A stretch of 64,000 bases of DNA from Muribaculaceae bacterium Isolate-110 (HZI) (GTDB taxonomy: Bacteria; Bacteroidota; Bacteroidia; Bacteroidales; Muribaculaceae), in NCBI GenBank assembly GCA_003762875.1, contig RIBL01000010.1:1-64000 (forward strand), written 5' to 3'. Numbering within the stretch: position 1 is the stretch's first letter; each line of letters begins with the position of its first letter. Of the stretch, positions 5,185 through 20,375 are shown one piece after another. The position numbers and the translations under genes were made by a program. The notes beneath the pieces are model-generated. The model saw only the letters and a list, made by a program, of their open reading frames with translations. It was not told the DNA's origin and did not search any database.

Positions 5185-5928
5185 ATGACAGAATACGTAA
5201 ACGAATTTTATCTCACGGCTGCCGAGGTCAACGCCCAGGAAGAGATGCCCCTGTCGCGTCTGGTCACGCTCATCATCGACACAGCCACCGGCCATGCCAA
5301 CAGTCTCGGGTTTGGTTATGCACACATGATGGAGACCAACACATCGTGGGTGTTGTCGCGCCTGAGTGTTGACATTAAGAGCATGCCGGGTGTCAACCGC
5401 GCATACCGTCTCATTACATGGGTGTCGAGTGTCAACCGCATATATTCCGAGCGTCTTTTTGAACTGAAGGATGCCGCTACAGACGAGACTCTCGCATGGG
5501 CCCACACCACCTGGATGGCTATTGACATGGATTCGCGCCGTCCTACCGACCTGTCGCGCCATCAGGCTCTGGTCGACATTGTCACCGAGCGCGAGTTTGG
5601 AGGTGACAAAGGGGGTAAACTGCTGCCTGTGGGAGCTGAGGCCTCGGGATATACATATATATTTAAGGTGAGCGACATTGACGTCAACCGCCACGTCACC
5701 ACCCGACGCTATATCGACCTTATCACCGACCTGTGGCCGCTTGACAAATATACCGAGAGTCGTGTGTCGCGGTTTGAGATCGCTTTCAAGCATGAGGCGA
5801 GATATGCCGAGGAGTCTGTGACCCTTATGATGCCTCGCGGAGATGCCTCCGACGATGTCTATGACACCGAAATCAGGGTAGGGGATACAAGCTGTGCCCT
5901 CGCCCGCATATATTTCACAAAACGATAA
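5185..5928 (+). CDS. Acyl-ACP thioesterase (FatA/FatB type)
   Basis: Hydrolyses acyl-acyl carrier protein to release a free fatty acid. The 247-residue cytoplasmic protein shows two tandem hotdog domains. The second contains SDIDVNRHVTTRRYIDL (about residues 161-177), the family motif bearing the Asn and His of the active site. In the first domain WVLSRLSVDI and MPGVNRAYRLITWVSS are typical of the family. It starts 18 nt after ilvN, and ilvC begins 34 nt after its stop, so it sits inside the branched-chain amino acid operon. I recall the same placement in Bacteroides. A link to branched-chain fatty acids, which derive from the same 2-oxo acids, is inference. Confidence 0.9.
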   Translation: MTEYVNEFYLTAAEVNAQEEMPLSRLVTLIIDTATGHANSLGFGYAHMMETNTSWVLSRLSVDIKSMPGVNRAYRLITWVSSVNRIYSERLFELKDAATDETLAWAHTTWMAIDMDSRRPTDLSRHQALVDIVTEREFGGDKGGKLLPVGAEASGYTYIFKVSDIDVNRHVTTRRYIDLITDLWPLDKYTESRVSRFEIAFKHEARYAEESVTLMMPRGDASDDVYDTEIRVGDTSCALARIYFTKR

Positions 5929-5962
5929 TCATATAATTGAAAAACTCATAATAATTACAATT

Positions 5963-7006
5963 ATGGCAAAACTTAACTTTGGCGGAGTAGAAGAAACCGT
6001 CATCACACGTGAAGAGTATCCGTTGAGCAAGGCTCTCGAGACTCTCAAAGACGAGACAATAGCAGTGATCGGTTACGGTGTTCAGGGTCCCGGCCAGGGC
6101 CTCGACCTGCGTGACAACGGATTTAATGTGATAGTAGGTCAGCGCGAAGGCAAGACTTATGACAAGGCCGTGGCTGACGGCTGGAAGCCCGGCGAGACAC
6201 TTTTCTCAATCGAGGAAGCCTGTGAGCGCGGTACCATCATTATGTGTCTGCTCAGCGACGCCGCAGTCATCTCTCAGTGGCCTACCATCAAGAAGCACCT
6301 TACCCCCGGCAAGGCTCTCTATTTCAGCCACGGTTTTGCCATCAACTGGAGTGACCGCACAGGCGTCGTGCCTCCTGCCGACGTAGACGTAATCATGGTT
6401 GCCCCCAAGGGCTCGGGCACAATGCTCCGCGTGCTCTTCAAGGAGGGCAAAGGCACCAACTCATCGTTTGCAGTATATCAGGACGCCACCGGCCGCGCGC
6501 TTGACCGCACTCTTGCTCTCGGCATCGGTATCGGCTCGGGCTACCTGTTCGAGACCACATTCCAGCGTGAGGCCGTCAGCGACCTCACTGGCGAGCGCGG
6601 TTCGCTCATGGGTGCTATCCAGGGTCTTCTTCTTGCGCAGTATGAAGTGCTCCGCGAGAACGGCCACACTCCCTCCGAGGCCTTCAACGAGACCGTCGAG
6701 GAGCTCACACAGTCGCTTATGCCCCTCTTTGCAGCCAAAGGTATGGACTGGATGTATGCCAACTGCTCGACAACAGCCCAGCGTGGCGCGCTCGACTGGA
6801 TGGGCCCGTTCCACGATGCCATCAAGCCCGTCGTGCGTGACCTCTATGAGAGCGTGAAGACCGGCCGTGAGGCTCAGCGCAGCATCGACTCCAATACCCA
6901 GCCCGACTATCGCGAGAAGCTCGAGGAGGAACTCAAGGCACTCCGCGAGAGCGAAATGTGGCGCACAGGTGCTGTAGTCCGCACCCTCCGTCCCGAGAAC
7001 GTATAA
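5963..7006 (+). CDS. ilvC: Ketol-acid reductoisomerase, NADP-dependent class I
   Basis: Rearranges and reduces acetolactate or acetohydroxybutyrate to the dihydroxy acid that IlvD uses. The start is taken at the ATG of MAKLNFGGVEE (347 residues). An upstream in-frame ATG at 5894 lies inside the thioesterase gene and would add a non-conserved extension. The Rossmann motif reads GYGVQGPGQGLDLRDNG, the Bacteroidetes variant of GxGxxGxxxA. Metal and substrate residues are expected in the knotted C-terminal domain containing DLTGERGSLMGAIQG and ETVEELTQSLMP. Last gene of the operon; a strong hairpin follows at 7043-7110. Confidence 0.96.
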   Translation: MAKLNFGGVEETVITREEYPLSKALETLKDETIAVIGYGVQGPGQGLDLRDNGFNVIVGQREGKTYDKAVADGWKPGETLFSIEEACERGTIIMCLLSDAAVISQWPTIKKHLTPGKALYFSHGFAINWSDRTGVVPPADVDVIMVAPKGSGTMLRVLFKEGKGTNSSFAVYQDATGRALDRTLALGIGIGSGYLFETTFQREAVSDLTGERGSLMGAIQGLLLAQYEVLRENGHTPSEAFNETVEELTQSLMPLFAAKGMDWMYANCSTTAQRGALDWMGPFHDAIKPVVRDLYESVKTGREAQRSIDSNTQPDYREKLEEELKALRESEMWRTGAVVRTLRPENV

Positions 7007-7042
7007 TCCCCGTCGTCAGCATAGATAGACGCAGGATATTAC

Positions 7043-7110
7043 AAAAGTATCAGAAGAGCCAAAAGTTTTTACAAATTCAGGTAAAAACTTTTGACTCTTC
7101 TGATACTTTT
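7043..7110. repeat. Long intergenic palindrome / bidirectional terminator between ilvC and nadK (repeat family member A)
   Basis: A 30-nt left arm (7043-7072) and a 30-nt right arm (7081-7110) pair at 29 of 30 positions around the 8-nt loop AAATTCAG. The right arm is followed by further T residues, so it can terminate ilvC, and by symmetry nadK on the other strand. The arm is unusually long for a simple terminator. Its 25 nt at 7041-7065 match the arm of the palindrome at 50655-50679 at 21 of 25 positions, which points to a dispersed repeat family. Confidence 0.85.
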
Positions 7111-7139
7111 TTGATTATTTCGGAGTGCCTGATTATACT

Positions 7140-8024
7140 CTAACGTCTCGACATGCCCCAGAGGAGTTTGGAGCTGAGGGTGTCGACAAATGTATGTCCG
7201 TCGCGATGTATGACTTTTATCACAAACGGGGCACGGGAGATGTGGAGATTGACGCTGACGGGGATCACCAGTTGCCGTCCGTCGAGATTGACGCGATAGG
7301 TGTCGGCCCTGGTCTCGACACGAGTTGTAATCATATGGTTGTCGCTCACCACGAGCGGGCGCATGGTCAGGGCGTGGGGTGCTATCGGCGAGAGAGCCCA
7401 GCAGGGGGCGGTGGGCTGTATGATGGGGCCCCCTACCGACAGATTGTAGGCAGTCGACCCTGTAGGGGTTGAAATGATGAGTCCGTCACCCTGATAGGAT
7501 GCAATCTCGATGTCGTCGAGAAACGTATGTATCGTAATCATCGAGGCCGAGTCGTGGCGCAGGATAGCCACCTCGTTGAGAGCATAGGCCCACCCTGTGA
7601 TGGACTGGCGCAAGTGTTCGCCCGAGGCCTTGACCTGGAGCAGCGAGCGCGGCTCTATGAAAAATTTGCCCGAGAGAAGATTCTCCACAATCGCCGGAGC
7701 ATCCTCGAGTGACTCTTCGGCCAGAAATCCGAGATGTCCAGTATTGAAACCGATGATGGGTATCTCCTTGGGCCCGACCCATCGGGCTGTGCGCAGAAAA
7801 GTACCGTCGCCCCCGATGCTTATGGCCACATCGGCCGTAAACTCGTCGGCGTCAAACACATCGTCGGCATCGAGCGGAGTGCCGAGGTCGCGTGTCATGG
7901 CTTCGTAGAAGTGTCGCTGCACGGCCACGAATATGCCGTTGTCAGAGAGAAGTCTGATGAGCGATGCGATGCGGGGCACATCGTCGACGCTCTGACGCCG
8001 TTTGCCGAACACTGCTATTTTCAT
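7140..8024 (-). CDS. nadK: NAD kinase
   Basis: Phosphorylates NAD to NADP in the cytoplasm using ATP or polyphosphate. The 294-residue protein shows the signature GGDGT at residues 71-75, the Asn-Glu pair at 150-151, and the glycine-rich TPTGSTAYNLSVGGP at 186-200, all conserved in the family. Length is normal. It lies 27 nt downstream of the small ACT-like gene on the same strand and probably shares its promoter. It converges on ilvC. The role of NADP in IlvC chemistry is a loose functional tie only. Confidence 0.96.
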   Translation of the reverse strand: MKIAVFGKRRQSVDDVPRIASLIRLLSDNGIFVAVQRHFYEAMTRDLGTPLDADDVFDADEFTADVAISIGGDGTFLRTARWVGPKEIPIIGFNTGHLGFLAEESLEDAPAIVENLLSGKFFIEPRSLLQVKASGEHLRQSITGWAYALNEVAILRHDSASMITIHTFLDDIEIASYQGDGLIISTPTGSTAYNLSVGGPIIQPTAPCWALSPIAPHALTMRPLVVSDNHMITTRVETRADTYRVNLDGRQLVIPVSVNLHISRAPFVIKVIHRDGHTFVDTLSSKLLWGMSRR

Positions 8025-8051
8025 CCTGTCGATGCTTTTATAGTGAGAGGT

Positions 8052-8438
8052 TTATAAATCAATGTAATACATCAGCTCGTTGAGACGGTCGGCAGCGAGC
8101 GGGTCGTCGGCCAGGGCATCATGCTCGACATCCACCACCTCATAGCCATATCTTTCGAGCGACCTTGCCACGGCCAGCGGACTGCGGTGGCTCACCCTGA
8201 GTTCGGTCACCACACGGTTGTCAAGCCGCTCGCCGTCGGTGGTGACGTTGAGGTTGAGCAGGTGGGCGTCGGCATCCTCCACGGCGCGGGCTATGCGCGA
8301 CGCGCTGTAGTCAGAGGGCAGACAGCTCACAAGCAGCCTGCTTGCCTCCTGTCTCGGCGGGTAGATGCGGTCGATTGACGGCTCTGCCGACAGCACCGGG
8401 AGAAATTCGTTGGGTGATATGATGTCTTTTGAGGTCAA
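8052..8438 (-). CDS. Small ACT-like protein; lacks the CBS pair of its usual relatives
   Basis: A 128-residue protein upstream of nadK and divergent from pdxJ. In Bacteroides I recall a protein of about 220 residues at this position with two CBS domains followed by an ACT-like C-terminal domain ending in a conserved helix (RYDxLMxYLNV). Here residues 33-128 fit only that C-terminal part: LLVSCLPSDYSASRIARAVE, then RVVTELRVSHRSPLAVARSLERYG, ending RLNELMYYIDL. The first 30 residues could be a remnant of the second CBS domain. The start used is a TTG at 8438 after an AT-rich leader; no ATG is available nearby. Function unknown; regulation of the neighbouring cofactor genes is speculation. Confidence 0.75.
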   Translation of the reverse strand: MTSKDIISPNEFLPVLSAEPSIDRIYPPRQEASRLLVSCLPSDYSASRIARAVEDADAHLLNLNVTTDGERLDNRVVTELRVSHRSPLAVARSLERYGYEVVDVEHDALADDPLAADRLNELMYYIDL

Positions 8439-8465
8439 AATTTTCGGTTTTCAGTTTTTTCTGAG

Positions 8466-8473
8466 TAAATTTG
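8466..8473 (+). promoter_or_regulatory. -7 box of the pdxJ promoter
   Basis: TAAATTTG matches TAnnTTTG. The region 20 bp upstream is T-rich (TTTTC) rather than a perfect TTTG. Transcription would begin near 8480, leaving about 77 nt of leader. Confidence 0.5.
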
Positions 8474-8500
8474 CATCCGCAATCCTGTCGGGACGTGGTA

Positions 8501-8531
8501 CAAAGTTACTAATATTCTTATATATATTCAA
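8501..8531 (-). promoter_or_regulatory. Promoter of the ACT-like gene and nadK
   Basis: On the minus strand TAACTTTG (8501-8508) has a TTG (8529-8531) exactly 20 bp upstream. The predicted start near 8494 lies about 55 nt before the TTG start codon. It faces the pdxJ promoter, so the two 5' leaders overlap by roughly 15 nt. Confidence 0.6.
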
Positions 8532-8556
8532 CCGCCCGCGGGACAAAAAGATTTAA

Positions 8557-9276
8557 ATGATGACAAATCTAAGCGTTAATATCAACAAAATAGCCACCCT
8601 GCGCAACGCGCGCGGTGAGAATGTGCCCGATCTGCTCAAAGTGGCCGCCGACTGTGAGACCTTTGGTGCGCAGGGTATTACCGTGCATCCCCGTCCCGAC
8701 CAGCGTCACATCAGGCGCGACGACGTCTACAAGCTGCGTCCGCTGGTACGCACCGAGTTTAACATCGAGGGTTACCCCGCGCCCGAGTTTATGGAGCTTG
8801 TGCTCCAGGTGCGTCCCACTCAGGTGACACTCGTGCCCGACGCGCCCGACGCACTCACTTCGAGTGCCGGATGGGATGTTGCCTCCAACATGGAGTTTCT
8901 CACCTCGGTAGTGGAGCGTCTGCGCGAGGCCGGCATACGTTCGTCGATATTTGTCGGCACCGACATTGACAACATACGTCTTGCCGCCAAGACCGGGGCC
9001 GACCGCATAGAGCTTTACACCAAGCCTTATGCCGACCTTTATCCCACCGATCCCGAACGAGCCGTGGCCCCCTTTGTCGAGGCCGCCGACGCAGCTTTCA
9101 AGTGTGGTCTCGGAGTGAATGCCGGCCACGACCTTAGCCTTGTCAATCTTGAGTGGTTTCACTCGCGCATCCCCCGCCTGAGCGAAGTGTCGATAGGCCA
9201 TGCCCTCATCTGCGACGCGCTCTATCTCGGCCTCGAGGAGACTATACACCGTTATCTGCAGTGTCTCCGTTCCTGA
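8557..9276 (+). CDS. pdxJ: Pyridoxine 5'-phosphate synthase
   Basis: Condenses 1-deoxyxylulose 5-phosphate with 3-amino-2-oxopropyl phosphate to pyridoxine 5'-phosphate in the DXP-dependent vitamin B6 route. The 239-residue TIM-barrel protein has the expected length. The phosphate and active-site motif HPRPDQRHI spans residues 44-52. The strand [10 protein letters not shown] holds the catalytic Glu near residue 72, and the [11 protein letters not shown] loop carries the late catalytic His. Two consecutive Met codons open the gene; either could be the start. It is divergent from nadK and lies 38 nt before the ExbB gene, an order I recall from other Bacteroidales. Confidence 0.96.
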
Positions 9277-9314
9277 TTCATAGATAATAATACATACTCA
9301 TATACAGCCTCAAC

Positions 9315-10022
9315 ATGTTTCAACAGCAATTTGTCGACACACTATCGGCCACGGCCGATAGCCTCACTCCCGTAATGCAGGAACAGGCCGCGCAGATGGT
9401 GCAGGAGCTTTCGGTGTGGGATCTTACCATGCGTGGCGGTTTCATCATGATACCCCTCGCCATTCTGTCCATTATAAGTATATATATATTTGTAGAGCGT
9501 TGCATCGCCATAAGCCGCGCACGCAAGGAGGACTCATCGTTCATGCAGCGCATCCGCGATTACATACATGACGGCGAAATCGAGAGCGCGCGCAATCTCT
9601 GTCACCGTACCGACACTCCCTATTCGCGACTCATCCTCAAAGGCATCTCGCGCATAGGCCGTCCGATGAACGATGTGCTCGTAGCCATCGAAAACACCGG
9701 CAACATCGAGATCGCCAATCTCGAGAAAGGTCTCTCCTGGCTCGCCACCACAGCAGCCGGCGGCCCGATGATAGGTTTTCTCGGCACAGTAATAGGTATG
9801 GTCAACGCTTTCTACAATCTTGCATCGGCCGGGACGAGTGCCAACATCGCAGTGCTTGCCGACGGCATCTATGCCGCTCTGGTGACAACAGTGGCCGGTC
9901 TTATCGTCGGCATCATCGCCCTATTTGCCTACAACTATCTCGTGGCACGTATCAATAAGGTGATGAACAACCTCGAGGCCAAGACCATGGAGTTTATGGA
10001 CCTTCTCAACGAGCCTGCATAA
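9315..10022 (+). CDS. MotA/TolQ/ExbB proton channel family protein
   Basis: Inner-membrane proton channel subunit that energises a TonB/TolA-type transducer. The 235-residue protein has three membrane segments at about residues 39-62, 138-165 and 177-210. The second and third contain AAGGPMIGFLGTVIGMVNAF and ALVTTVAGLIVGIIALFAYNY, the pore-lining helices of the family. A longer amphipathic N-terminal leader precedes the first helix, as in other Bacteroidetes members. It is 4 nt upstream of the ExbD gene, so translation is probably coupled. Whether it works in TonB- or Tol-like transport cannot be told from sequence alone. Confidence 0.92.
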   Translation: MFQQQFVDTLSATADSLTPVMQEQAAQMVQELSVWDLTMRGGFIMIPLAILSIISIYIFVERCIAISRARKEDSSFMQRIRDYIHDGEIESARNLCHRTDTPYSRLILKGISRIGRPMNDVLVAIENTGNIEIANLEKGLSWLATTAAGGPMIGFLGTVIGMVNAFYNLASAGTSANIAVLADGIYAALVTTVAGLIVGIIALFAYNYLVARINKVMNNLEAKTMEFMDLLNEPA

Positions 10023-10026
10023 AGTT

Positions 10027-10461
10027 ATGGCACTCAAGCGACAACACCGCATGATGGAAGTGTTTTCCATGGCATCCATGACCGATGTCATATTTCTGCT
10101 TCTCATCTTCTTTATGGTCACTTCGACATTTGTGTTTCCGACCGCGCTCGAAGTCAACCTCCCCGAGAGCTCCCACCAGACCGCGCTCAAGCCCTCTACG
10201 CGGGTGTTTATCGACAAGGAGTCGCGACTCTACGTGTCGCTTGCCGGAGAGGAGCCGGTGAATGTCGAGCTCGAATCGCTCGCCGCCGCGCTTCAGGAGG
10301 CACGTCTTAACGCCGACCCTTCGGCCGACGATTTCATTGCGGTCTATGCTGATGAAGAGGTGACTTACGGCACGCTCGTGAAAGTACTTGACCTCGGAGC
10401 TCAGAACAACCTCAAGATGGTGCTTGCCACCAAACCTGCTCCCGCCACGGCCAAGCCTTGA
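10027..10461 (+). CDS. ExbD/TolR family biopolymer transport protein
   Basis: Single-pass inner-membrane stator subunit. Its transmembrane helix near residues 17-37 (MTDVIFLLLIFFMVTSTFV) carries the conserved proton-relay Asp19. The remaining periplasmic part has the ExbD/TolR fold ending near residue 135, with the YGTLVKVLDLG strand typical of the family. Length 144 is normal. Only one ExbD gene is present here, whereas many Bacteroidetes TonB operons have two, so this set may be the Tol-like version. It lies between the ExbB and TonB-like genes. Confidence 0.92.
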   Translation: MALKRQHRMMEVFSMASMTDVIFLLLIFFMVTSTFVFPTALEVNLPESSHQTALKPSTRVFIDKESRLYVSLAGEEPVNVELESLAAALQEARLNADPSADDFIAVYADEEVTYGTLVKVLDLGAQNNLKMVLATKPAPATAKP

Positions 10462-10496
10462 GCCGGAGTTCATATATGTTTTTAAACAACCACTAA

Positions 10497-11300
10497 ATGT
10501 CTCCATCGCGTCGAAATAAAATAGTTGCCATGCTGGCCACACTGCTGTTTCATGTAATAGTGGTGGTGATTCTTGCCTCGCTCTATCTGCGCTATTCACC
10601 CTCCGAGCAGGCAGAGCGCAAGTGGCCTCCTGTCGACTCATCCGAAGTGCTCTTTGGAGGCGAATTTGTAATGACCGGTGACTCGCCCGAGCTTGCCGAG
10701 TCATCTCAGGAGCCGGCTCCGGCCGAGGTTCACGAGCCTACGCCACCCGCGCCTCAGGCACCCTCGGTGGAGAATATCGGCACACCGGCCCCGACACCGG
10801 CTCCGGTAGTGACATCCGAGCGGCCATCGCCCGCCAAGGTCATCAAGGAGACACCTAAGGAGCCGACCGGCCCGACAAAAGCTGAAATCGAGGCGGCTGA
10901 GCGCGCGAAGCGTGAAGCCGAGACCCGTCAGCAGATAGCTAACAAGGTGCAGTTTGGCAAGTCGGGCACAGGTTCGACCGGTCAGGGCAAGGCCGGAAGC
11001 ACCAACGGCAACTCGTCGACCGGCGCGTTGAGCGGCACACCCGGCTTCAATCTCAAAGGGCGCACAATGGACTCGTGGAGCAAACCGCAGCCCGGCCCGC
11101 TCGGCACTATCACCGTAAAGGTCAGTGTCAACCGCCAGGGACAGGTCACCGAAGCCTCCTATCAGTCAGGCACTGGGGCGGCGGCGGCAAATGCCTCGAC
11201 ACGTCAGAATTGTGTCAATGCCGCGCGAGCCTCGCGTTTTTCGGTCGACAATGACGCTCCCGCCATCCAGACCGGCACAATCACATATCGCTTTCAATAA
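10497..11300 (+). CDS. TonB/TolA-like energy transducer
   Basis: The 267-residue protein has one N-terminal membrane anchor at about residues 8-33 and a Pro/Ala-rich periplasmic linker at about 75-125. A short charged helix, EIEAAERAKREAETRQQIANK, recalls TolA domain II. A Gly/Ser/Thr-rich stretch follows, and the C-terminal domain at about 200-267 (ITVKVSVNRQGQVTEASYQSG) is TonB/TolA-like. It closes the pdxJ-exbB-exbD-tonB cluster. It would transmit the proton motive force to outer-membrane receptors such as the SusC protein encoded next, but the pairing is inferred from proximity. TolA versus TonB is unresolved. Confidence 0.88.
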   Translation: MSPSRRNKIVAMLATLLFHVIVVVILASLYLRYSPSEQAERKWPPVDSSEVLFGGEFVMTGDSPELAESSQEPAPAEVHEPTPPAPQAPSVENIGTPAPTPAPVVTSERPSPAKVIKETPKEPTGPTKAEIEAAERAKREAETRQQIANKVQFGKSGTGSTGQGKAGSTNGNSSTGALSGTPGFNLKGRTMDSWSKPQPGPLGTITVKVSVNRQGQVTEASYQSGTGAAAANASTRQNCVNAARASRFSVDNDAPAIQTGTITYRFQ

Positions 11301-11448
11301 TATTTATATCCCCTCACGATATATATAATCTCTATATAATAAGGTGTAAAGGGGGGGCGGTGCGTCTGGTATGTGCTGAAAATTTTTTGCACATGACAAC
11401 TTTTGTTAGATGATGTTGATAAAATGTTGAAAACTTTCTGTGAAAAAG
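11301..11448. other. Spacer between the TonB-like gene and the susC promoter
   Basis: AT-rich sequence without a gene. It contains a run of seven G at 11351-11357 and two copies of ATGTTGA near 11413-11430. A palindrome AAACTTT-CTGTGAA-AAAGTTT (11431-11451) touches the -33 box of the next promoter and may be an operator. Confidence 0.45.
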
Positions 11449-11480
11449 TTTGAATATATCGAAAAGTTGTTTTATATTTG
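11449..11480 (+). promoter_or_regulatory. Promoter of the susCDEF-like operon
   Basis: TTTG (11449-11452), 20 bp, TATATTTG (11473-11480): a perfect Bacteroidetes promoter. The predicted start is near 11487, leaving an unusually long leader of about 390 nt before the susC start codon. Confidence 0.75.
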
Positions 11481-11523
11481 TCGCAAGATTCTTCAAAAGC
11501 CATCAGAGGGTGATTGGGGAATA

Positions 11524-11673
11524 ATGATAAAGACAATAAAAAAAGATAATGTAGAGATTTTTTCCCCACGTAAAAAAGACAAGCCGTATATTAACTACTT
11601 GTCGGAGGTCTTGACTCCGACTCTTTCCGCAGCCACTGAAAAATCTTTCCCGACCTCTCTCGCCAAGGTGTGA
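11524..11673 (+). CDS. Possible 49-residue leader peptide in the susC 5' region
   Basis: An ATG about 37 nt after the predicted transcription start opens a 49-codon frame. The peptide begins MIKTIKKDNVEIF, is Lys-rich in its first half, and ends SLAKV. It overlaps the hairpin GTCGGAG/CTCCGAC at 11601-11621. I do not recognise it, and it may be fortuitous. Codon use is less GC-biased at third positions than the flanking genes. It is listed because it lies in a structured leader, where a short translated frame could matter for regulation. Confidence 0.25.
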   Translation: MIKTIKKDNVEIFSPRKKDKPYINYLSEVLTPTLSAATEKSFPTSLAKV

Positions 11674-11804
11674 CAACCGAGATGACCGCTTGTCGCGCAC
11701 AGTCGGACGGGACGTGAAAAACGTAATTACATTCATCTTTTTTTGAAGCGTCCTTACCACGCACGCCTATAGGCGTGTGCTTTACGGTGTGCACCGTAAA
11801 GCAC
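11601..11804 (+). promoter_or_regulatory. Structured leader RNA upstream of susC
   Basis: Three clear stem-loops lie in the transcribed leader: GTCGGAG-GTCTTGA-CTCCGAC (11601-11621), the 16-bp palindrome CACGCCTATAGGCGTG (11762-11777), and arms GTGCTTTACGGTG and CACCGTAAAGCAC (11777-11804) that pair perfectly over 13 bp around TG. None is followed by a T-run, so they are not simple terminators. ACGT-GAAAA-ACGT (11713-11725) is a smaller fourth element. I know no riboswitch class that matches. Confidence 0.5.
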
Positions 11805-11880
11805 AGATGCCGTTAGACGTCACACATTGATAATATAGAGATTACAATAACATATTTACAACGTTCTAAAAACCTCTTGC

Positions 11881-14800
11881 ATGAAGAACATTTGTCATCA
11901 AATGACCCGGAAAGTCTGGCTTGCAGCCCTCCTTACGCTGTGCTTTTCTTTCCCGGCTTTAGCGCAGAAAATCACGGTCAGTGGTACTGTGATCGACCCT
12001 GAGGGCGAACCCCTCATCGGAGCAAGTGTGCTTGTGAAGGGCGAAACGCTCGGCACTGCTACAAACATCGACGGTGAATACACCATCTCGGTCCCCTCCG
12101 ACGGTATCCTTGTATTCTCCTATGTGGGTTATGACACACAGGAGATACCCGTCAACGGCCAGACCACACTCAACGTAAGCATGAAAGAAAATTCGCTCAT
12201 GCTTGACGAAGTAGTGGCCATCGGCTACGGTACAGTAAAGAAAAGCGACGCTACCGGTTCGGTGGCTACCGTAAAGCCCTCTGAAATCGAGGCCGGTCTT
12301 GCCACTTCGGCCCAGGACCTCCTCGTCGGAGCCTCGCCCGGTGTGGTAGTGACCACTTCCGGCAATCCCTCTGAAGGCGGTAACATACAGATACGTGGCG
12401 GCGCGTCGCTTGCAGCGTCCAACGACCCCCTTATCGTGATTGACGGTGTGCCTATGGACACCAAGGGTGTGGTAGGTTCATCCAACCCCCTGTCGCTCAT
12501 CTCGCCCGAAAGCGTCGAGTCGATGACAATTCTCAAGGATGCTTCGGCCACAGCCATTTACGGTAGCCGTGCGTCAAACGGTGTGATTATCATTACCACC
12601 AAGAAGGGTGCCAAGGGTGCTCCGCAGGTGACATTCACGGCCAACGCCTATATCAACACCCCCCGCAAGCTGCTCGACATGATGTCGGCCGATCAGTTCC
12701 GCAACTTCATCATCAGTGAATACGGAGCCGAGTCAGATCAGGCAGGTGCTCTCGGCAACTACAATACCGATTGGCAGAAAGCGGCCACACGCACCACATT
12801 CTCCTCTGACTACAGCCTCAGCATCGGCGGCACGGCTGGTATACTTCCCTATCGTGTGGGCATCAGCTACTCCAACAATAACGGTATCCTCGAGTTTACC
12901 TCGATGGAGCGCACATCGGCCAACATCAATCTCTCGCCCAAATTCTTCAACGACCTTCTTTCGGTCAATGCCAATGTGCTCGGAGCATATGTCAAAAACT
13001 CATATGCCAACAACAACCTCGGCTCATGTGCAAGCATGAATCCCACACTTCCCGTGCGTGACTATGAGAACGGCTGTCCGCTATTCGGCTACTGGACTTC
13101 ATATGTAGGCGGCGGTCTGCTTGCTGGTCCCGACACCGAGGGTACGAAAATCAACTCGACCACCGCACCTCTCAACCCCATCGCCGACATGGCTGCCGTA
13201 AACTCCAACGGCAAGTCATACCAGTCGATAGGCAATCTCCAGCTTGACCTCAAGATGCCTTTCCTCACCGATCTCCGTGCCAATCTTAACCTCGGTTATG
13301 ACTATCAGCACGGCACATGGAGCGGCGGCAACTATCCCAACACCCCCAATGCATGGAACGGTGGCTATGAAGTAATCAAGGACGGTAAAATCGAGACTAT
13401 CAAGGACGGCGGCACATCATGCACCGATCAGTTCCAGACACGTGTCAACCTGCTTCTTGACTTCTATCTCAACTACAATCATTATTTCGAGTCAATCAAG
13501 TCGAGTGTCGACGTGACCGCCGGCTACTCGTGGCAGAAGTTTCACAACAAACGTCGTGAATATACTTATGTGAACTGCGTTATGGATCCCGCCAATGAGA
13601 TTTATCTCGGCATGCAGGCCCGTCCGACAAGCATCAACATCGATCCCCTCCAGCTCGTGTCGTTCTTCGGCCGTGCCAACTTTGTGTTCCTTGACAAATA
13701 TCTCGTGACAGCCACCGTGCGCCGCGACGGCACCAGCCGCTTCTCCAAAGACCACCGCTGGGGCACATTCCCCTCGGTAGCTCTCGGATGGAAGATACTC
13801 GAGGAAAACTTTATGGAAGGTGCTCGCGGCTATCTCAACGATCTCAAGCTCCGTGCCGGCTACGGTATCACCGGCCAGCAGGATCTCGGCGATGACCTCT
13901 TCCCCTATCTCCCCATCTACAGCGTGTCTGAAGACCTTGCAGGCAAATATCCATCGCTCACAAGCAATGGCGACGGTATTCTCCCCATTACCCCCGGTGC
14001 CTACAATTCAGACATCAAGTGGGAGGAGACTGCCACATGGAACGCCGGTCTTGATTTCGGTTTCATGAACAACCGCATCCTCGGCAGCATCGACTTCTAC
14101 AAGCGCAAGACCAAAGACCTCCTCACATTTGCCAACTATCCCGCAGGTTCCAACCTTACCAACAAGGGTAACATGAATATCGGCGACCTCGAGAATATCG
14201 GTGTCGAGTTTACACTCACCGCCCGTCCCATCGTTACCAAGGATTTCACCTGGACATCATCCTACAACGTAGCCTGGAACAAAAACAAGATCACACGTCT
14301 TGCCGAGGGTGCCGACACACAGACCGGTGGCATCTCGGCTGGTACAGGCGGCACTATCCAGAAACATGAGGTAGGATATCCCGCCTACAGCTTCTATGTC
14401 TACGAGCAGGTCTATGACAAGAACGGCAATCCTCTCGAGGGTGTCTTTGTTGACCGCAACGGCGACGGCCAGATCAACGAGGCCGACAAATATCTCTATC
14501 ACAGCCGCGACCCCAAGGTGACAATGACATGGAACAATACTTTCAACTGGAAGAACTGGGACTTAGGTTTCGTGCTCCGCGCCAATATCGGCAACTGGAT
14601 GTATAACAACAACCAGGCAGCCAATGTAAGCAAGCGTGCCAACGCCGCACTCCCCCTGAGCAACCTCATGGCCGACACCTTCCTCTTCGAGACATCCGAC
14701 ATCACCACCATCATGAGCGATTATTTCGTACAGAACGCTTCGTTCCTACGCTGCGACAATATCACTCTGGGTTACACATGGCAGAACCTTCTCAACAACC

Positions 14801-14949
14801 ACCTGCGTCTGCGTCTCTATGGAGCCGTACAGAATCCTTTCGTCATCACCAAATACAAAGGTCTTGACCCCGAGGTATTCTCAGGCATCGACAACGGTGT
14901 ATATCCCAAGCCCACCACATTCTCGCTTGGCGTTGTCGCATCGTTCTAA
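11881..14949 (+). CDS. SusC/RagA-type TonB-linked outer-membrane transporter
   Basis: TonB-dependent beta-barrel that imports oligosaccharides or peptides together with a SusD-type lid lipoprotein. The 1022 residues run as follows: signal peptide to about residue 29 (ending PALAQ), a carboxypeptidase-D-like regulatory domain at about 31-106 (SGTVIDPEGEPLIGASV), a TonB-box region ELxEVVAIGYGTVKK-like near 115, a plug domain at about 125-240 (DPLIVIDGVPMD; ASATAIYGSRASNGVI), then the barrel, ending in the family's terminal Phe. There is no extra N-terminal STN signalling domain, so control by an anti-sigma/ECF pair is unlikely. susD follows after 46 nt. Confidence 0.95.
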   Translation: MKNICHQMTRKVWLAALLTLCFSFPALAQKITVSGTVIDPEGEPLIGASVLVKGETLGTATNIDGEYTISVPSDGILVFSYVGYDTQEIPVNGQTTLNVSMKENSLMLDEVVAIGYGTVKKSDATGSVATVKPSEIEAGLATSAQDLLVGASPGVVVTTSGNPSEGGNIQIRGGASLAASNDPLIVIDGVPMDTKGVVGSSNPLSLISPESVESMTILKDASATAIYGSRASNGVIIITTKKGAKGAPQVTFTANAYINTPRKLLDMMSADQFRNFIISEYGAESDQAGALGNYNTDWQKAATRTTFSSDYSLSIGGTAGILPYRVGISYSNNNGILEFTSMERTSANINLSPKFFNDLLSVNANVLGAYVKNSYANNNLGSCASMNPTLPVRDYENGCPLFGYWTSYVGGGLLAGPDTEGTKINSTTAPLNPIADMAAVNSNGKSYQSIGNLQLDLKMPFLTDLRANLNLGYDYQHGTWSGGNYPNTPNAWNGGYEVIKDGKIETIKDGGTSCTDQFQTRVNLLLDFYLNYNHYFESIKSSVDVTAGYSWQKFHNKRREYTYVNCVMDPANEIYLGMQARPTSINIDPLQLVSFFGRANFVFLDKYLVTATVRRDGTSRFSKDHRWGTFPSVALGWKILEENFMEGARGYLNDLKLRAGYGITGQQDLGDDLFPYLPIYSVSEDLAGKYPSLTSNGDGILPITPGAYNSDIKWEETATWNAGLDFGFMNNRILGSIDFYKRKTKDLLTFANYPAGSNLTNKGNMNIGDLENIGVEFTLTARPIVTKDFTWTSSYNVAWNKNKITRLAEGADTQTGGISAGTGGTIQKHEVGYPAYSFYVYEQVYDKNGNPLEGVFVDRNGDGQINEADKYLYHSRDPKVTMTWNNTFNWKNWDLGFVLRANIGNWMYNNNQAANVSKRANAALPLSNLMADTFLFETSDITTIMSDYFVQNASFLRCDNITLGYTWQNLLNNHLRLRLYGAVQNPFVITKYKGLDPEVFSGIDNGVYPKPTTFSLGVVASF

Positions 14950-14995
14950 CATCTGTCACAGTTATCAACACTAACAATATTGAATTACAAGAATC

Positions 14996-16534
14996 ATGAA
15001 ATTCTCAAAATATATCATAATAGGTGGCATCGCGCTTTCGATGGGCTTTACCTCCTGTGTTGACGACCTTGACGTCAGCCCCGAGAACCCCACCAGCAAG
15101 CTGGAGCTGACCACTGCCGAAGATTATTATGCTCTCATGGCCCGAGCCTACGGAGGTCTTGTGCTCGAGGGCGGCATCGCTGTTGACGATGGTGGCGCAG
15201 GTGTCTACACCCGTCAGCTATGGAATGTACAGGAACTTCCGTCTGACGAAGCCATCGTCGGTTACAACTGGGACGACGCCGGCATCCAGGAACTCGGCTT
15301 CTCCACATGGTCGAGCGACAACCACTGGCTCTATGAGTGCTTCTCGCGTTTCAACTATCAGATAGCTCTCTGCAACGAGTTTCTCCGCACCATCGGCAAC
15401 GCTTCGGGTCTGATAGCCGAGGACGAAATCAACACACTGCGCTGCGAGGCCCGTGTGCTCCGCGACCTTTCATACTATCATATGATCGATATCTTCGGCC
15501 GCGGTCCCTGGACCGACGAAAATTCAGTTGTAGGTGCCACACCTCCCACCTACGACCGCAAGCAGCTCTTTGACGCCGTTGTGGCCGACCTTCTCGCCTC
15601 GGTTCCCGGCCTGCGTCCCGCTTCGCAGCAGGTATATGGCCGCATCTCTCGCGAGGCCGGCTATATGCTCCTCGCCAAGATGTATCTCAACGCCGAGGTC
15701 TACACCGGCCAGGGCATGTGGCAGCAGTGTGCCGACGCCTGCAACGAGATACTCAAGACCATCAATCAGCTCGCTCCCGAGTACAAATATCTCTTCTGCG
15801 CCACCAACGACAAGTATGTGGGCAACGGTGAAATCCTCTGGGGCATACCTCAGGACACCAACACCCTCCACACCTACGGTGGCACCACCTACATCTCGGG
15901 CGGTGCATACAATGCCGAGGTAGCTGTTGACAAGCCTTACGGCTGCGGTGTCGACGGCTGGGGCGGTCCCCGCGTACGTCCCGAGCTGTCACAGGCTCTC
16001 GCCAAGAATGACAAGCGTCGCCTCATCTACGAGGGCTCGTTCAATGAGAATCTCCACAATCTTGACTCCTGGACCAAGGACGGTGACGGATACATGTGTG
16101 TGAAGTTTGTCTACACTCCCGAGGACAACTATGACAACGCCGACGGCTCGTCAACCACATCGACCGTGTTCAACTCCACCGACTTCCCCCTCTTCCGTCT
16201 CGCCGATACTTATCTGATGCTCGCCGAGTGTGAGAAGCACGGAGCCTCCAACTGCAACGGTCTCGCCCGCCTCAATGACGTGCGCAACCGTGCCGGTCTC
16301 GGCTCAGTCACCTCCTATACTCTCGACGACATCCTCACCGAGCGTCTCCGCGAGCTTTACTGGGAGGGTCACCGTCGCAGCGACCTCGTGCGCTTCGGCA
16401 AGTTTGCCGGCAATGCCTACAACTGGTCATGGAAAGGCGGTGTGGAGGCTGGAGCCGCTACACAGTCATATCGCAACGTATGCTGCATCCCCGCACAGTA
16501 TGTGCCCACCCTCGGCCAGAACCCCGGCTATTAA
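14996..16534 (+). CDS. SusD/RagB-type nutrient-binding outer-membrane lipoprotein
   Basis: Surface lipoprotein that caps the SusC porin and binds its ligand. The signal peptide ends in the lipobox FTSC (Cys20), followed by acidic residues DDLD that favour surface export in Bacteroidetes. At 512 residues it has typical SusD length. TPR-like helices such as ARVLRDLSYYHMIDIFGRGPW and EAGYMLLAKMYLN, and the C-terminal ITERLRELYWEGHRRSDLVRFGKF-type segment, are family hallmarks. It is encoded 46 nt after susC and 39 nt before the first SusE-like gene, so co-transcription is clear. Ligand not deducible from sequence. Confidence 0.95.
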   Translation: MKFSKYIIIGGIALSMGFTSCVDDLDVSPENPTSKLELTTAEDYYALMARAYGGLVLEGGIAVDDGGAGVYTRQLWNVQELPSDEAIVGYNWDDAGIQELGFSTWSSDNHWLYECFSRFNYQIALCNEFLRTIGNASGLIAEDEINTLRCEARVLRDLSYYHMIDIFGRGPWTDENSVVGATPPTYDRKQLFDAVVADLLASVPGLRPASQQVYGRISREAGYMLLAKMYLNAEVYTGQGMWQQCADACNEILKTINQLAPEYKYLFCATNDKYVGNGEILWGIPQDTNTLHTYGGTTYISGGAYNAEVAVDKPYGCGVDGWGGPRVRPELSQALAKNDKRRLIYEGSFNENLHNLDSWTKDGDGYMCVKFVYTPEDNYDNADGSSTTSTVFNSTDFPLFRLADTYLMLAECEKHGASNCNGLARLNDVRNRAGLGSVTSYTLDDILTERLRELYWEGHRRSDLVRFGKFAGNAYNWSWKGGVEAGAATQSYRNVCCIPAQYVPTLGQNPGY

Positions 16535-16573
16535 TTCATCATCATTTATTCTGAATAATTACACCGATTCAAT

Positions 16574-17656
16574 ATGAAACTTCATATATTTGGCTTGATG
16601 GCATTGGCAGTTGCCGGGCTCACCTCTTGCGAGGCCGACAAGGATCCTGTGCTCCAGGAGCCGACCGAATTTAAGGTAAACACCCCTCCGTTTGTCAATC
16701 AGCTCTATGACCTCTCGCCCGACGGAGTGATGGAGATAACCTGCTCTCAGCCCAACTATGGTCTCGCGCTCGCACCGACCTACACAGCCGAAGTGTCGAT
16801 CTTTCCCGACTTCGGCGAGAGCCTTCCCGCTCCTGCTCCCGATGACGAGGATGCCATACCTTACTCTGTGCTCATCACGACCAACAACCCAAACAGCGCG
16901 GTGATGGAGATTCCCGAGAATGCTATCGCAGTAGCCATCTGCGAGATGCGCGGCATCACCGAGGAGGCACAGTATACCGACGAAGGTCCCCGCCCGCTCT
17001 ACGTCCGCGTAATAGCACAGGTGGCCGACCAGCTTTCGACCCGTATCGTCTCCGACCCTATCACATTCCCTAAGGTGCAGGGCTACTTTGCCTCTAATGT
17101 CGCCGCGCTTGACGTGCTCTACACCCCCGGCAACTCCAACGGCTGGAGCCATGACAACTCGCAGCAGCTCGTAAGCTACGAGGAGGGCAAGTATCGCGGA
17201 TTTGTCTATATCAACGGTGAATTCAAGTTTACATCCGCTCCCAACTGGGATGGTGTTAACTATGGCAGCACCGGCGTAGAGGGCGAGCTCTCTGACGACG
17301 GCGGCGCGGGCAACCTTACGCTCCCCGCCCAGGGCGAAGGTCTCTACTATGCACAGGTCAACACCAACGACCTCACTTACACTCTCACCTACATCTCGGC
17401 CGTGAATATCCCCGGCGGATTCAACGGATGGGATATCACTTCGACCATGACGTCGACCGATTATCTCCACTGGACAATAACCGCCGACCTCAACGGTGAG
17501 GAGTTTAAGTTTGCATTTAACAACTCATGGGATCTCAACCTTGGTGGAGCCATCGACGCACTTGAGTTTGGTGGCGGCAATATGGTAGGCGAGAGCGGTG
17601 AAGTGACCGTAACACTCGACCTCTCCAAGTTCCCTTACACAGCCACTTTCGAGTAA
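16574..17656 (+). CDS. SusE/SusF-like outer-membrane lipoprotein (first paralogue)
   Basis: A 360-residue lipoprotein with the signal peptide ending LTSC (Cys19). The N-terminal part (about 20-175) is the Ig-like SusE domain, starting DKDPVLQEPTEFKVN. The C-terminal part holds two carbohydrate-binding-module repeats, each built around a PGNSNGW or PGGFNGW motif (about residues 185-270 and 278-360). In Sus these modules bind starch on the cell surface. Residues from about 180 on are near-identical to the C-terminal part of the next gene. A perfect 16-bp hairpin follows the stop codon. Alpha-glucan binding is inferred from family resemblance. Confidence 0.88.
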   Translation: MKLHIFGLMALAVAGLTSCEADKDPVLQEPTEFKVNTPPFVNQLYDLSPDGVMEITCSQPNYGLALAPTYTAEVSIFPDFGESLPAPAPDDEDAIPYSVLITTNNPNSAVMEIPENAIAVAICEMRGITEEAQYTDEGPRPLYVRVIAQVADQLSTRIVSDPITFPKVQGYFASNVAALDVLYTPGNSNGWSHDNSQQLVSYEEGKYRGFVYINGEFKFTSAPNWDGVNYGSTGVEGELSDDGGAGNLTLPAQGEGLYYAQVNTNDLTYTLTYISAVNIPGGFNGWDITSTMTSTDYLHWTITADLNGEEFKFAFNNSWDLNLGGAIDALEFGGGNMVGESGEVTVTLDLSKFPYTATFE

Positions 17657-17681
17657 ACATCCTCTAAGTAAAAAATTCGAC

Positions 17682-17725
17682 TTTCAGTATGCGGGAGTCG
17701 CGGATAAGCCTCCCGCATACTGAAA
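17682..17725 (+). terminator. Strong hairpin between the two SusE/F-like genes
   Basis: Arms TTTCAGTATGCGGGAG (17682-17697) and CTCCCGCATACTGAAA (17710-17725) pair perfectly over 16 bp around a 12-nt loop. Only AAATAAAC follows, without a T-run, so it may stop transcription weakly or protect the 3' end of the upstream message rather than end the operon. Confidence 0.7.
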
Positions 17726-17748
17726 TAAACAATGAATAACACTATTAC

Positions 17749-19188
17749 ATGAAATATTCAGCATTATTCGGATTAGCTGCACTCGCGCTTGGCTTTGTGG
17801 CCTGTGATGAAATCGAGGAATCCACCGGCCTGCCCCAGACTAATCCACAGCTTCCCATACTTACGGTCGACAATGTGCCTCTGACACCCGCGGCTGCCGC
17901 ACAGCAGGGCATCAATCTTATCCAGGCCAATGATAACGGCGGCACAATCAATCTCGCCACTATCGAGACCCCTGCCGACTTTCCCGAAGGCTATCGTGCC
18001 GAGGTGCTTTCTATTGAGCTTGGCAAGGACGCCGCTTTCACCGAGAAGCAGACTATTCAGGCTGTGACCGATGCCGAGGGCAATGTGAATGTCCAGGCCG
18101 ATGACTGGGAGACAGCCCATCAGGCACTCTTCGGCAAGAATCCCGGCGCGACAACTACCTATATACGTATTCCCGCATGGGCCGTGAAGGGTGACCAGAC
18201 CATACGTCTCGGCAACGAGAACGTATATTACTCGACATTCTCCACACAGGTGACACCGTTTGACCTTTTCGACGGATATGTAATAGAGGATGCCTATTAT
18301 CTCGTAGGCTCGTTCTGCGACTGGGATTTCTCCAAGGCTCTCAAGTTCAGCCACAACGAGTATGATCCCTATGACGACCCCACCTTCACGCTCAAGGTGC
18401 CCGCATTCACTCCCGACTGGGAATGGGTGATTATCCCCGAGTCGACTCATTCTGCCGGACATTTTGTCGACGCTCCTCAGTCGAGCTTTGGCGTTGAGTT
18501 CAGCAACAGTCTCAAGGGCGCGCTCGTAATCAATGACACCCAGGACTATGGCACCCCCGGCGTGATTACTGAAAATGTAGGCATGCTCTTCAAGGTCAAT
18601 ATGCTTGACCTCACTTATGAGATTGAAGAACTCCCCTCGGTGCTCTACACCCCCGGCAACTCCAACGGCTGGAACTTTGACAACTCTCAGCAGCTCGTAT
18701 CCTACGAGACCGGCAAGTATCGCGGATTTGTCTACATCAACGGCATCTTCAAGTTTACCGATGCCCCCAACTGGGATGGTACCAACTATGGCAACTCGGG
18801 CACTGACGGTGTGCTGTCGACCGACGGCGGAGCAGGCAACCTCGAGCTTCCCGCTGAGGGCGAAGGTCTCTATTTCGCCGATGTCAACACTAACGACCTC
18901 ACCTATACCCTCACTTATATCTCGGCCGTGAATATCCCTGGCGGATTTAACGGATGGAACATCAACTCCACGATGACCTCTACCGACTATCTCCACTGGA
19001 CAGTCGTAGCCGACCTTCAGGGTGGTGAGTTCAAGTTTGCATTCAACAACTCATGGGATCTCAGCTACGGCGGTGCCGCAGACGACCTCCAGTATAACGG
19101 ACCCAACTGCAAGGCTCCCGAAGGTACATATCTCGTGACCCTCGACCTCACATCCGTGCCCTACACCTACACACTGACAGCTCAGTAA
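17749..19188 (+). CDS. SusE/SusF-like outer-membrane lipoprotein (second paralogue)
   Basis: A 479-residue lipoprotein with the signal peptide ending FVAC (Cys19) followed by DEIEE, the acidic type of surface-export signal. An N-terminal Ig-like domain (about 25-165) is followed by a module starting AYYLVGSFCDWD (about 185-290). Two further modules with PGNSNGW and PGGFNGW follow (about 300-479). The last two are duplicated from, or gene-converted with, the preceding gene. Three binding modules against two makes it the SusF-like member. The operon appears to end here with the hairpin at 19229-19264. Confidence 0.88.
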   Translation: MKYSALFGLAALALGFVACDEIEESTGLPQTNPQLPILTVDNVPLTPAAAAQQGINLIQANDNGGTINLATIETPADFPEGYRAEVLSIELGKDAAFTEKQTIQAVTDAEGNVNVQADDWETAHQALFGKNPGATTTYIRIPAWAVKGDQTIRLGNENVYYSTFSTQVTPFDLFDGYVIEDAYYLVGSFCDWDFSKALKFSHNEYDPYDDPTFTLKVPAFTPDWEWVIIPESTHSAGHFVDAPQSSFGVEFSNSLKGALVINDTQDYGTPGVITENVGMLFKVNMLDLTYEIEELPSVLYTPGNSNGWNFDNSQQLVSYETGKYRGFVYINGIFKFTDAPNWDGTNYGNSGTDGVLSTDGGAGNLELPAEGEGLYFADVNTNDLTYTLTYISAVNIPGGFNGWNINSTMTSTDYLHWTVVADLQGGEFKFAFNNSWDLSYGGAADDLQYNGPNCKAPEGTYLVTLDLTSVPYTYTLTAQ

Positions 19189-19228
19189 TGTAGAATCAAG
19201 TCAGAAAATATAACACCCTCTGATAGCG

Positions 19229-19268
19229 TCGCCCGACCATGCTCCATGTGAGCAGGCCGGGCGATTTT
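19229..19268 (+). terminator. Terminator of the susCDEF-like operon
   Basis: TCGCCCG (19229-19235) pairs with CGGGCGA (19258-19264), with an inner TGCTC/GAGCA stem, followed by TTTT. It lies 40 nt after the last lipoprotein gene. Confidence 0.7.
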
Positions 19269-19299
19269 CAAGTTGTTAGACACACTCTTATTTCAGTGT

Positions 19300-19863
19300 T
19301 TATTTCAGTGCTTTGCCATCGGAGAAAGCATTTCCGACCTTCTCACCGAGGGCGATATAGCCATTATGAACCGGGTCAAAGGTTATGAGCCGCATTTTCT
19401 CGACATCAGGTTGGCCGTCCCCTGCCAGATAATTCTCATCACAGACTATATTGACGATTTGGGCCACGATATAGTAACCCGATTCAGACTCGTAAAGTTT
19501 CTCCTTGATACGGCACTCCATTGTCATAGGGAAGCAGTCAAAAACAGGAGCATTGACATTTTCCCCTTTGACGGATTTCCATCCGGTTTTCTCTATTTTA
19601 TCGTGGTGAGTCTTGCCGCTTACAATGCCTACATAGTCGGAGGCTGTGAGAGTATCAATGGTGGCAAAGGCAACGGTGAAATCTCCGTTGCGGTTAAGAT
19701 TTTCCGTAGTGGCGTGTGCACCCATCGAAATCATGATTTCGTTCATATCCCATTGACCGCCCCAGGCGGCATTCATGGCATTGGGAGTGCCGTCGGCATC
19801 ATAAGTGCCGATGATAAGTACAGGCTGAGGAAGCAGCCATGCCTTTGGTTTGAAATTCTTCAT
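19300..19863 (-). CDS. Flavoredoxin-like flavin reductase domain protein
   Basis: An FMN-binding split-barrel protein of 187 residues. The N-terminal LLPQPVLIIGTYDADGTPNAMNAAWGG segment and HATTENLNRNGDFTVAF are characteristic of the flavin reductase-like/flavoredoxin group, which bind FMN and take part in electron transfer or flavin reduction. No signal peptide, so cytoplasmic. It lies 77 nt downstream of an HxlR-type regulator on the same strand. Such regulators often control redox or quinone-stress genes, so a role in reductive detoxification is plausible but inferred. Confidence 0.88.
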   Translation of the reverse strand: MKNFKPKAWLLPQPVLIIGTYDADGTPNAMNAAWGGQWDMNEIMISMGAHATTENLNRNGDFTVAFATIDTLTASDYVGIVSGKTHHDKIEKTGWKSVKGENVNAPVFDCFPMTMECRIKEKLYESESGYYIVAQIVNIVCDENYLAGDGQPDVEKMRLITFDPVHNGYIALGEKVGNAFSDGKALK

Positions 19864-19940
19864 TATTTCTAATTTTTACTCGTTACATAAGTTTATAACA
19901 ATCATAAGCCATATTTTACCATATCCGATAGGCCTCACGT

Positions 19941-20306
19941 TCACTTGTCACACTTGCGGCCATATTTCCGCTCAAAAATATCAAAGTGTTCCTCGCCCCA
20001 TTTTAGCATAAGGTCAATGATTGGTATCAGTGATAGCCCGAGTCCGGTGATTTTATACTCTGAGCGCGGGGGGAGTTCCGGATAGATTGTCTTTGTTACG
20101 AGGCCATCCTCCACCATCTCTTTGAGTTGAATGTCGAGCACTCGCGGAGCGGCTTCCGGCAGACATTTATGTATCTCGCTTGGTCGCTGCGGCTCACCGT
20201 TTCTCAATTCGTCAAGGATACAAGACTTCCATTTCGACTCGATCAGACTCATTGTAAGCCGTAACGGACAGTCCAGATCCACAGGTATTTTCTTTTCGTA
20301 TGCCAT
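19941..20306 (-). CDS. HxlR-family winged-helix transcriptional regulator
   Basis: 121 residues with the full HxlR pattern: Cys14 in DLDCPLRL near the N-terminus, then the IESKWKSCILDELRNG helix, a recognition helix around PSEIHKCLPEAAPRVLDIQLKEM, and the wing LPPRSEYKITGLG. In characterised relatives the N-terminal Cys senses electrophiles or disulfide stress. It is divergent from the SnoaL-like gene and upstream of the flavoredoxin gene. A 12-bp direct repeat at 20376-20406 in the shared intergenic region is a good operator candidate. Confidence 0.92.
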   Translation of the reverse strand: MAYEKKIPVDLDCPLRLTMSLIESKWKSCILDELRNGEPQRPSEIHKCLPEAAPRVLDIQLKEMVEDGLVTKTIYPELPPRSEYKITGLGLSLIPIIDLMLKWGEEHFDIFERKYGRKCDK

Positions 20307-20335
20307 CGGTTAAGTTTTTATTTTCTTTACGGTTA

Positions 20336-20343: not shown

Positions 20344-20375
20344 GTCAATAACTGTTTAATTTACATATACAGAAA

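Follow-up and report, generated by a model that had tools for sequence, protein, structure and literature searches.

A long susC leader in Duncaniella marked by a recurring GUAGAGA word and a start-anchored GAGA element: a candidate site of control in the mRNA

The susC gene that opens a susCDEF-like operon in a Muribaculaceae genome is preceded by a leader that is real and conserved, and its hallmark is the heptamer GUAGAGA in combination with a GAGA element anchored to the start codon, rather than the hairpin pair and the open frame to which a sequence-only reading of the same DNA had drawn attention. Our judgment is evenly balanced on whether the 400 nt before susC form an undescribed regulatory mRNA leader, at which a protein or small RNA acting at GUAGAGA would set translation or mRNA survival. 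For the glycan-uptake loci of gut Bacteroidota, regulation has mostly been described at the promoter. GUAGAGA, found in 23 of the 24 orthologous leaders and also ahead of a second starch gene, provides a sequence handle with which to find such a factor in a common gut genus; annotators and strain builders should meanwhile keep the 100- to 500-nt leader together with this susC.

We analyzed a stretch of 64,000 nucleotides (contig RIBL01000010.1 of Muribaculaceae bacterium Isolate-110 [HZI]; here, “the window”), and the features of the leader and of the operon behind it are collected in Table 1. A promoter ending at 11480 and a susC start at 11881, both named in the sequence-only reading, are present and leave about 400 nt between the -7 element and the ATG, close to the leader of roughly 390 nt that it had proposed, with the transcription start predicted from the promoter. 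The pattern TTTGN{17,23}TANNTTTG has 8 matches in the window against 0.43 expected, and the -7 element at this locus is the sole TAnnTTTG within 900 nt 5' of susC. The earlier observation that no ECF sigma factor, SusR, or hybrid two-component gene is next door holds for the 14 proteins scanned against Pfam (5894-20850), among which the sole regulator is an HxlR protein (19941-20306, minus strand). On its upstream side, susCDEF adjoins exbB, exbD, and a TonB-like gene (9315-11300); a tonB match upstream of susC was also seen in two related loci, L004 and L005, and in none of the other loci, which have short flanks.

Table 1. Features of the susC leader and operon in the window
Feature	Position	Strand	Evidence or remark
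Promoter TTTG-N20-TATATTTG, Bacteroidota type	11449-11480	+	Exact TTTG-N20-TAnnTTTG also in 13 of 23 genus loci
Long susC 5' leader	11481-11880	+	Transcription start predicted from promoter; folding z -4.4
CATCAGAGGGT element	11501-11511	+	CAGAGGG common to 7 leaders (7 of 29 sequences, 0 antisense)
Arms TGGGGAATAA / TTTTTCCCCA, which could enclose the distal GTAGAGA	11515-11568	+	11515-11524 and 11559-11568, 90% complementary
Distal GTAGAGA	11551-11557	+	70 nt past -7 element; heptamer in 23 of 24 genus leaders
Linker stem-loop GTCGGAG/CTCCGAC, 7 bp	11601-11621	+	Fold, sequence
HP1, perfect palindrome CACGCCTATAGGCGTG	11762-11777	+	18 of 18 cells paired, two-sided changes in 1 of 6 pairs (L003, L004, L005)
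HP2, GTGCTTTACGGTG-TG-CACCGTAAAGCAC, 13-bp stem abutting HP1	11777-11804	+	32 of 33 cells paired, two-sided changes in 6 of 11 pairs (L003, L004, L005)
Conserved tail AGATGCCGTTAGACG	11805-11819	+	AGATACCCTTAGATG in L004 and L005; no dispersed repeat
Proximal element TATAGAGATTA	11834-11844	+	About 45 nt 5' of ATG
CATATTTACA element, 3' of proximal GAGA	11851-11860	+	Seen in alignments
Frozen translation start region CTCTTGC-ATGAAGAACATTTGTCATCAAATG	11874-11904	+	Synonymous conservation; possible CATTTG/CAAATG hairpin
susC, TonB-linked outer membrane protein, SusC/RagA	11881-14949	+	TIGR04056, 783 bits
susD-like	14996-16534	+	NF033071 SusD, 278 bits, below cutoff of 725; PF07980
susE-like, SusF_SusE domain	16574-17656	+	PF16411
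susF-like, SusF_SusE domain	17749-19188	+	PF16411

With the leader and the susC start as queries, 23 susC orthologues were recovered from 27 genomes of the genus (the window's own locus is L003). A protein search added a 24th in G010, with a leader equal to that of L067, so that 24 of the 27 genomes are represented; no orthologue was found in G006, G019, or G022 at the thresholds used. Close relatives of the window susC include those of Duncaniella muris DSM 103720 and of other Muribaculaceae, which places the genome near Duncaniella. We took as the leader, in all 24 orthologues, the stretch that separates the -7 element from susC; up to the ATG, it measures 105 to 538 nt. Since the -7 element was picked by consensus, its presence in 24 of 24 is no independent evidence. 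Such leaders are unusual in length, given that in Bacteroides thetaiotaomicron the median 5' untranslated region is 32 nt long and 13.5% are longer than 100 nt (PMC7366714). A natural minimal leader occurs in L067 (1915-2019), where a stem-loop, three copies of GTAGAGA, and the proximal element fit within about 105 nt.

GTAGAGA is the most frequent 7-mer in 29 upstream regions, occurring in 23 of them, and its orientation is uniform, with 35 copies sense and none antisense. Upstream of the promoter there is no copy, nor is there any between -900 and -600. Within the 24 leaders of the genus, the 35 copies fall in 23 leaders, whereas 500 shuffles averaged 0.4 copies and never exceeded 4; the sole leader without the heptamer, L025, has ATATAGAGATTA, with TAGAGA at -75. 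Six extra upstream regions were considered, of which L067 has its three copies and L059, L070, L071, L072, and L074 have none, and in other genera of Muribaculaceae, the word was present in one of seven loci (L128) and in neither of two more (L132 and L135). As a general feature of susC genes, GTAGAGA was rejected: 43 other susC-type matches were found in the window's genome, 29 of them with loci whose starts were set mechanically and are in several cases doubtful, and no copy lay within 700 nt of these 29 genes except one at -500 in L045. A small RNA carrying the complementary word was also discarded, as the two intergenic antisense matches in the window's genome were placed by eye at the start of a zeta-toxin-like gene and before a restriction-type gene. 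We found no description of a GUAGAGA leader element among the titles and abstract beginnings of the open-licence PMC literature.

The first distal GTAGAGA lies 26 to 160 nt past the -7 element, at 82 to 88 nt in 10 of 22 leaders. In most species, it is preceded by a stem-loop, with a mean of -9.3 kcal/mol before the motif (n = 23) compared to -5.0 kcal/mol in other leader windows (P = 2e-4) and -1.6 kcal/mol just past the motif (P = 5e-5; Wilcoxon, n = 23, the species being related, so that both P values overstate independence). The window is an exception, at only -1.0 kcal/mol before GUAGAGA, i.e., with no preceding stem-loop. For eight distal modules, RNAalifold gave no common structure and not a single pair, and in most leaders, the unpaired probabilities of single-sequence folds do not put GUAGAGA above average in openness. 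By eye, GAAATAAAGG-like words past GTAGAGA could pair with CCTTATTTC-like words beyond the variable linker in one clade, in six leaders (L012, L014, L015, L018, L019, and L021).

Closer to the gene, GAGA is found between -62 and -28 from the ATG in 28 of 38 leaders that represent several genera of the Muribaculaceae; 16 of the 38 have TAGAGA there, and 1 has TCTC. In 20 leaders of the genus, the distance from this proximal GAGA to the ATG has a standard deviation of 4.6 nt, versus 100 nt for the distance to the promoter, which ties the element to the start codon. The pattern TAGAGATTAN{4,14}ATATTTAC has a single occurrence in the window's genome. The translation start region that follows is frozen at synonymous sites: identity is 0.89 over codons 2 to 10 and 0.48 over codons 29 to 60 of 35 susC sequences, and at codons 2, 3, 5, and 7, the same residue is written with the same codon across species (35 loci, family-wide), which sets these codons apart from the others among the first 60. 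Among 393 genomes of the order, a search for TTGCATGAAGAACATTTGTNNNCAAATG that allowed up to three mismatches recovered it in 4, in each case once and as an exact match; the 4 include the window's own genome, and all belong to its family. This segment can possibly form a CATTTG/CAAATG hairpin, the arms of which are nearly invariant where they are kept.

The layout recurs before a second gene. Searched genus-wide, TATTTGN{62,92}TGTAGAGA matched 33 times, in 16 of the 27 genomes, compared to 14 times for the backward pattern; 30 of the 33 were made into loci, and 28 of these were placed. Nine are susC leaders, and most of the others fall within longer open frames or run antisense to them. Two of the loci, L147 and L148, are intergenic and have the promoter, GTAGAGA at 84 and 83 nt past the -7 element, respectively, and, ahead of the start codon, ATATCTATTTACA. 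The gene that follows encodes a protein (912 amino acids in L196) containing three starch-binding modules of the CBM26 family and adjoins a putative esterase gene. A further intergenic match, L139, has a gene start 62 nt on. Only these two species have the CBM26 gene in closely related form (96% identity), so the case counts as one independent event, but one whose function fits; weaker matches (32 to 39%) exist in G008, G019, and G021, with no GTAGAGA in the DNA examined there. The matching layout and spacing suggest a starch regulon. We advance only tentatively, as a possibility short of an even chance, the idea that the Muribaculaceae have an undescribed post-transcriptional starch regulon whose recognition word is GUAGAGA. 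One RNA-binding regulator or small RNA would read the word in the leaders of susC and of the secreted CBM26 protein and would thereby coordinate starch uptake with starch binding at the surface, with no adjoining regulator gene.

Searches for other candidate members centered on related patterns. TAGAGAN{5,35}TATTTACA had 16 matches and its backward control 19, so that the total is not above control; 9 of its matches (in 8 leaders) fall outside open frames with a gene start no more than 70 nt downstream, all of them at susC or the CBM26 gene, with 2 of the 9 overlapping a short antisense frame. A pattern combining TGTAGAGA and GAAATAA had 13 matches, 7 of which are susC leaders by position. In the window's genome, ATGTAGAGA has 42 matches versus 22 for the control, and the full layout is found only at the susC leader; as inspection of all 42 turned up one lookalike without a consensus promoter, the species of the window itself shows no sign of a regulon. 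The lookalike, ATGTAGAGATTATATCATACTTACACAAC near position 51,614 of contig C36 in G000 (L183, minus strand), is a near copy of the proximal element and lies, by eye, between glycosyltransferase and amide-hydrolase-like genes, with neither a consensus promoter nor a near gene start.

Given signals that are strand specific, occur only past the promoter, and keep their place relative to the start codon, together with synonymous freezing of the start region, recognition of the mRNA is the best explanation, and the recurrence at a second starch gene favors a trans-acting factor over a purely internal switch. In the mechanism that we propose, a trans-acting RNA-binding protein or small RNA would recognize GUAGAGA or GAGA in the susC mRNA and, via the copy near the start codon, would turn up or down either the translation of the starch-uptake operon or the survival of its mRNA. 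In most relatives, the distal module is predicted to be a stem-loop close to the 5' end and then an unstructured stretch with GUAGAGA; its GUAGAGA copies may serve to load or bridge the factor. A fast-changing linker with species-specific hairpins (HP1 and HP2 in the window) could hold the spacing or protect the RNA, and the proximal module, UAGAGAUUA..CAUAUUUACA about 45 nt 5' of the ATG, would lead into the frozen start region. The sequence-only reading had suggested that control may act in the RNA. This idea gains from a long leader that is kept with susC across the genus, from strand-specific motifs that occur only past the promoter, and from compensatory changes in three species. The features on which it was built fared less well: the hairpin pair is clade specific and the 49-codon frame is not conserved, while GUAGAGA, the proximal GAGA, and the start region, which are conserved, had not been listed.

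The same word could instead be read in the DNA, a prospect that we regard as improbable, though less so than the other rivals: a transcription factor, SusR-like or other and encoded elsewhere, would bind GTAGAGA as direct repeats and act as a roadblock or activator, with the leader RNA passive. Direct-repeat DNA sites could show the uniform direction of all copies, and the spacing shared by 10 of 22 leaders is nearly that of the second gene (83 to 84 nt); SusR homologues also adjoin susC in some Muribaculaceae starch loci, as stated in the available part of PMC8636109. A DNA site fits poorly with the full range of promoter distances, with the complete lack of copies upstream of the promoter, and with a proximal copy spaced to the start codon and not to the promoter. 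The frozen codons 2 to 7 of susC and the stem-loop before the motif in most species likewise count against it.

Targets of TRAP and CsrA are leaders bound by RNA-binding proteins at repeated short sites. The Duncaniella leaders resemble them in that a short word is repeated both toward the 5' end and close to the start codon, and they differ in the word and in the phylum. Within the Bacteroidota, the roc leader of B. thetaiotaomicron mediates the silencing of a gene of a polysaccharide utilization locus (PUL) by glucose and fructose through the mRNA leader and independently of the promoter, in sugar silencing that runs through Cur/BT4338 (PMC10294740); its authors favor a small RNA or RNA-binding protein as the silencing factor, not yet identified in that paper. 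Both cases concern a PUL-encoded gene and an mRNA leader, with leader-level control here a proposal. The roc leader, however, is 54 nt long and precedes a different gene, and GUAGAGA is not mentioned in the available part of PMC10294740, whereas the Duncaniella leaders are 105 to 538 nt long with repeated motifs. The FopS small RNAs and RbpB exert post-transcriptional control at susC start regions (PMC11697453, available part) and thus share with our case a susC-type mRNA and its translation start region; as described there, FopS acts beside the start codon, whereas the Duncaniella heptamer recurs far upstream. DonS-type cis-antisense RNAs, named in PMC7366714, likewise combine susC homologues with control by RNA, which we propose here. 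Unlike at those genes, a consensus antisense promoter (TTG-TAnnTTTG) between -450 and +500 of susC is lacking in 22 of the 23 orthologues, and only L010 has a match, at -431; DonS-type control was rejected, as 0 of the 23 have such a promoter near the susC start. Rfam small-RNA families gave no match in the loci scanned.

The leader is markedly more structured than shuffled sequence. Its RNA folds at -112.6 kcal/mol, compared to -89.2 ± 5.3 kcal/mol for 100 dinucleotide shuffles (z = -4.4; no shuffle was as good), and its 14-bp perfect inverted repeat is longer than any stem found in 300 dinucleotide shuffles (maximum, 10). At least three stem-loops without T runs, two of them back to back, had been reported from the sequence, and they were found at 11601-11621, 11762-11777, and 11777-11804, with no sense-strand terminator within the window leader. 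HP1 and HP2 overlap by one base, at 11777. Over L003, L004, and L005, 50 of 51 cells of the two hairpins are paired, with two-sided changes in 7 of 17 pairs; HP2 in particular keeps its symmetry despite much sequence change, a behavior more like that of an RNA stem, though a DNA palindrome could change alike. Covariation of the stems is thus seen in these three loci, but most relatives are without these hairpins (the L067 leader has only about 105 nt), and the pair with its tail is recognizable only in L003, L004, and L005. A dispersed, REP-like repeat was considered and set aside, since in its own genome the hairpins occur only at the leader. The tail word AGATACCCTTAGATG has four matches in 27 genomes with at most one mismatch, two of them outside susC leaders and without hairpins. 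A different adjoining hairpin pair is found in L022 to L024, where 48 of 48 cells are paired and 2 of 16 pairs show two-sided changes; in controls, slid partners were 21 to 46% paired, and column shuffles equaled the observed value in 66 of 500 cases, so that this control is weak alone.

Hairpins and a C-rich linker might also form a platform for premature termination, Rho dependent or intrinsic, with GUAGAGA as an antitermination or entry signal, which we consider unlikely. Many leaders do contain C-rich, G-poor 78-nt stretches (e.g., 36 C and 7 G in L011 and L015), and in L010, L023, and L024, hairpins followed by T runs, noted by eye between the leader hairpins and susC, resemble intrinsic terminators. 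However, the skew of C over G is 0.13 in leaders, hardly above the 0.10 just upstream, the T-run hairpins are not conserved, and neither the window leader, with no terminator in the sense direction, nor the short leader of L067 fits such a platform well.

Translation in Bacteroidota prefers an A/U-rich region before the ATG, and such a region is present here. The leader could accordingly be merely long and loosely constrained, its motifs being translation enhancers and stability hairpins with no regulation, and the linker sequence is indeed not conserved. We think this quite unlikely: it leaves unexplained the distal GUAGAGA up to 400 nt away, its recurrence with equal spacing at the second starch gene, and the absence of GUAGAGA at 29 other susC-type genes save for the copy at -500. 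A ligand-sensing riboswitch of a new class is very unlikely, for although a long structured leader (z = -4.4) and compensatory changes in hairpins would suit it, what is conserved amounts to short words and no folded core (eight relatives yielded no fold in common), hairpin sequences and linker turn over freely, and Rfam gave no match.

At the gathering score, Rfam matched only two tRNAs in the window and nothing in 20 loci, in agreement with the earlier remark that no riboswitch of this shape was known; a scan of the leader alone gave one chance microRNA match (E = 3.7). The 49-codon frame noted earlier does exist, at 11524-11673, but is encoded by no relative (best E = 0.93) and was ruled out as a leader peptide for lack of a counterpart. 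Returning to the hairpin pair, the HP1-HP2 unit is doubled in tandem in L005 (1693-1795, minus strand). By eye, the 3' arm of HP1 (GGCGT) could alternatively pair with the tail (ATGCC) in the window (11762-11819). This alternative is compensated in L005 (GGTGT/ATACC) and broken in L004, and a two-state switch is conceivable.
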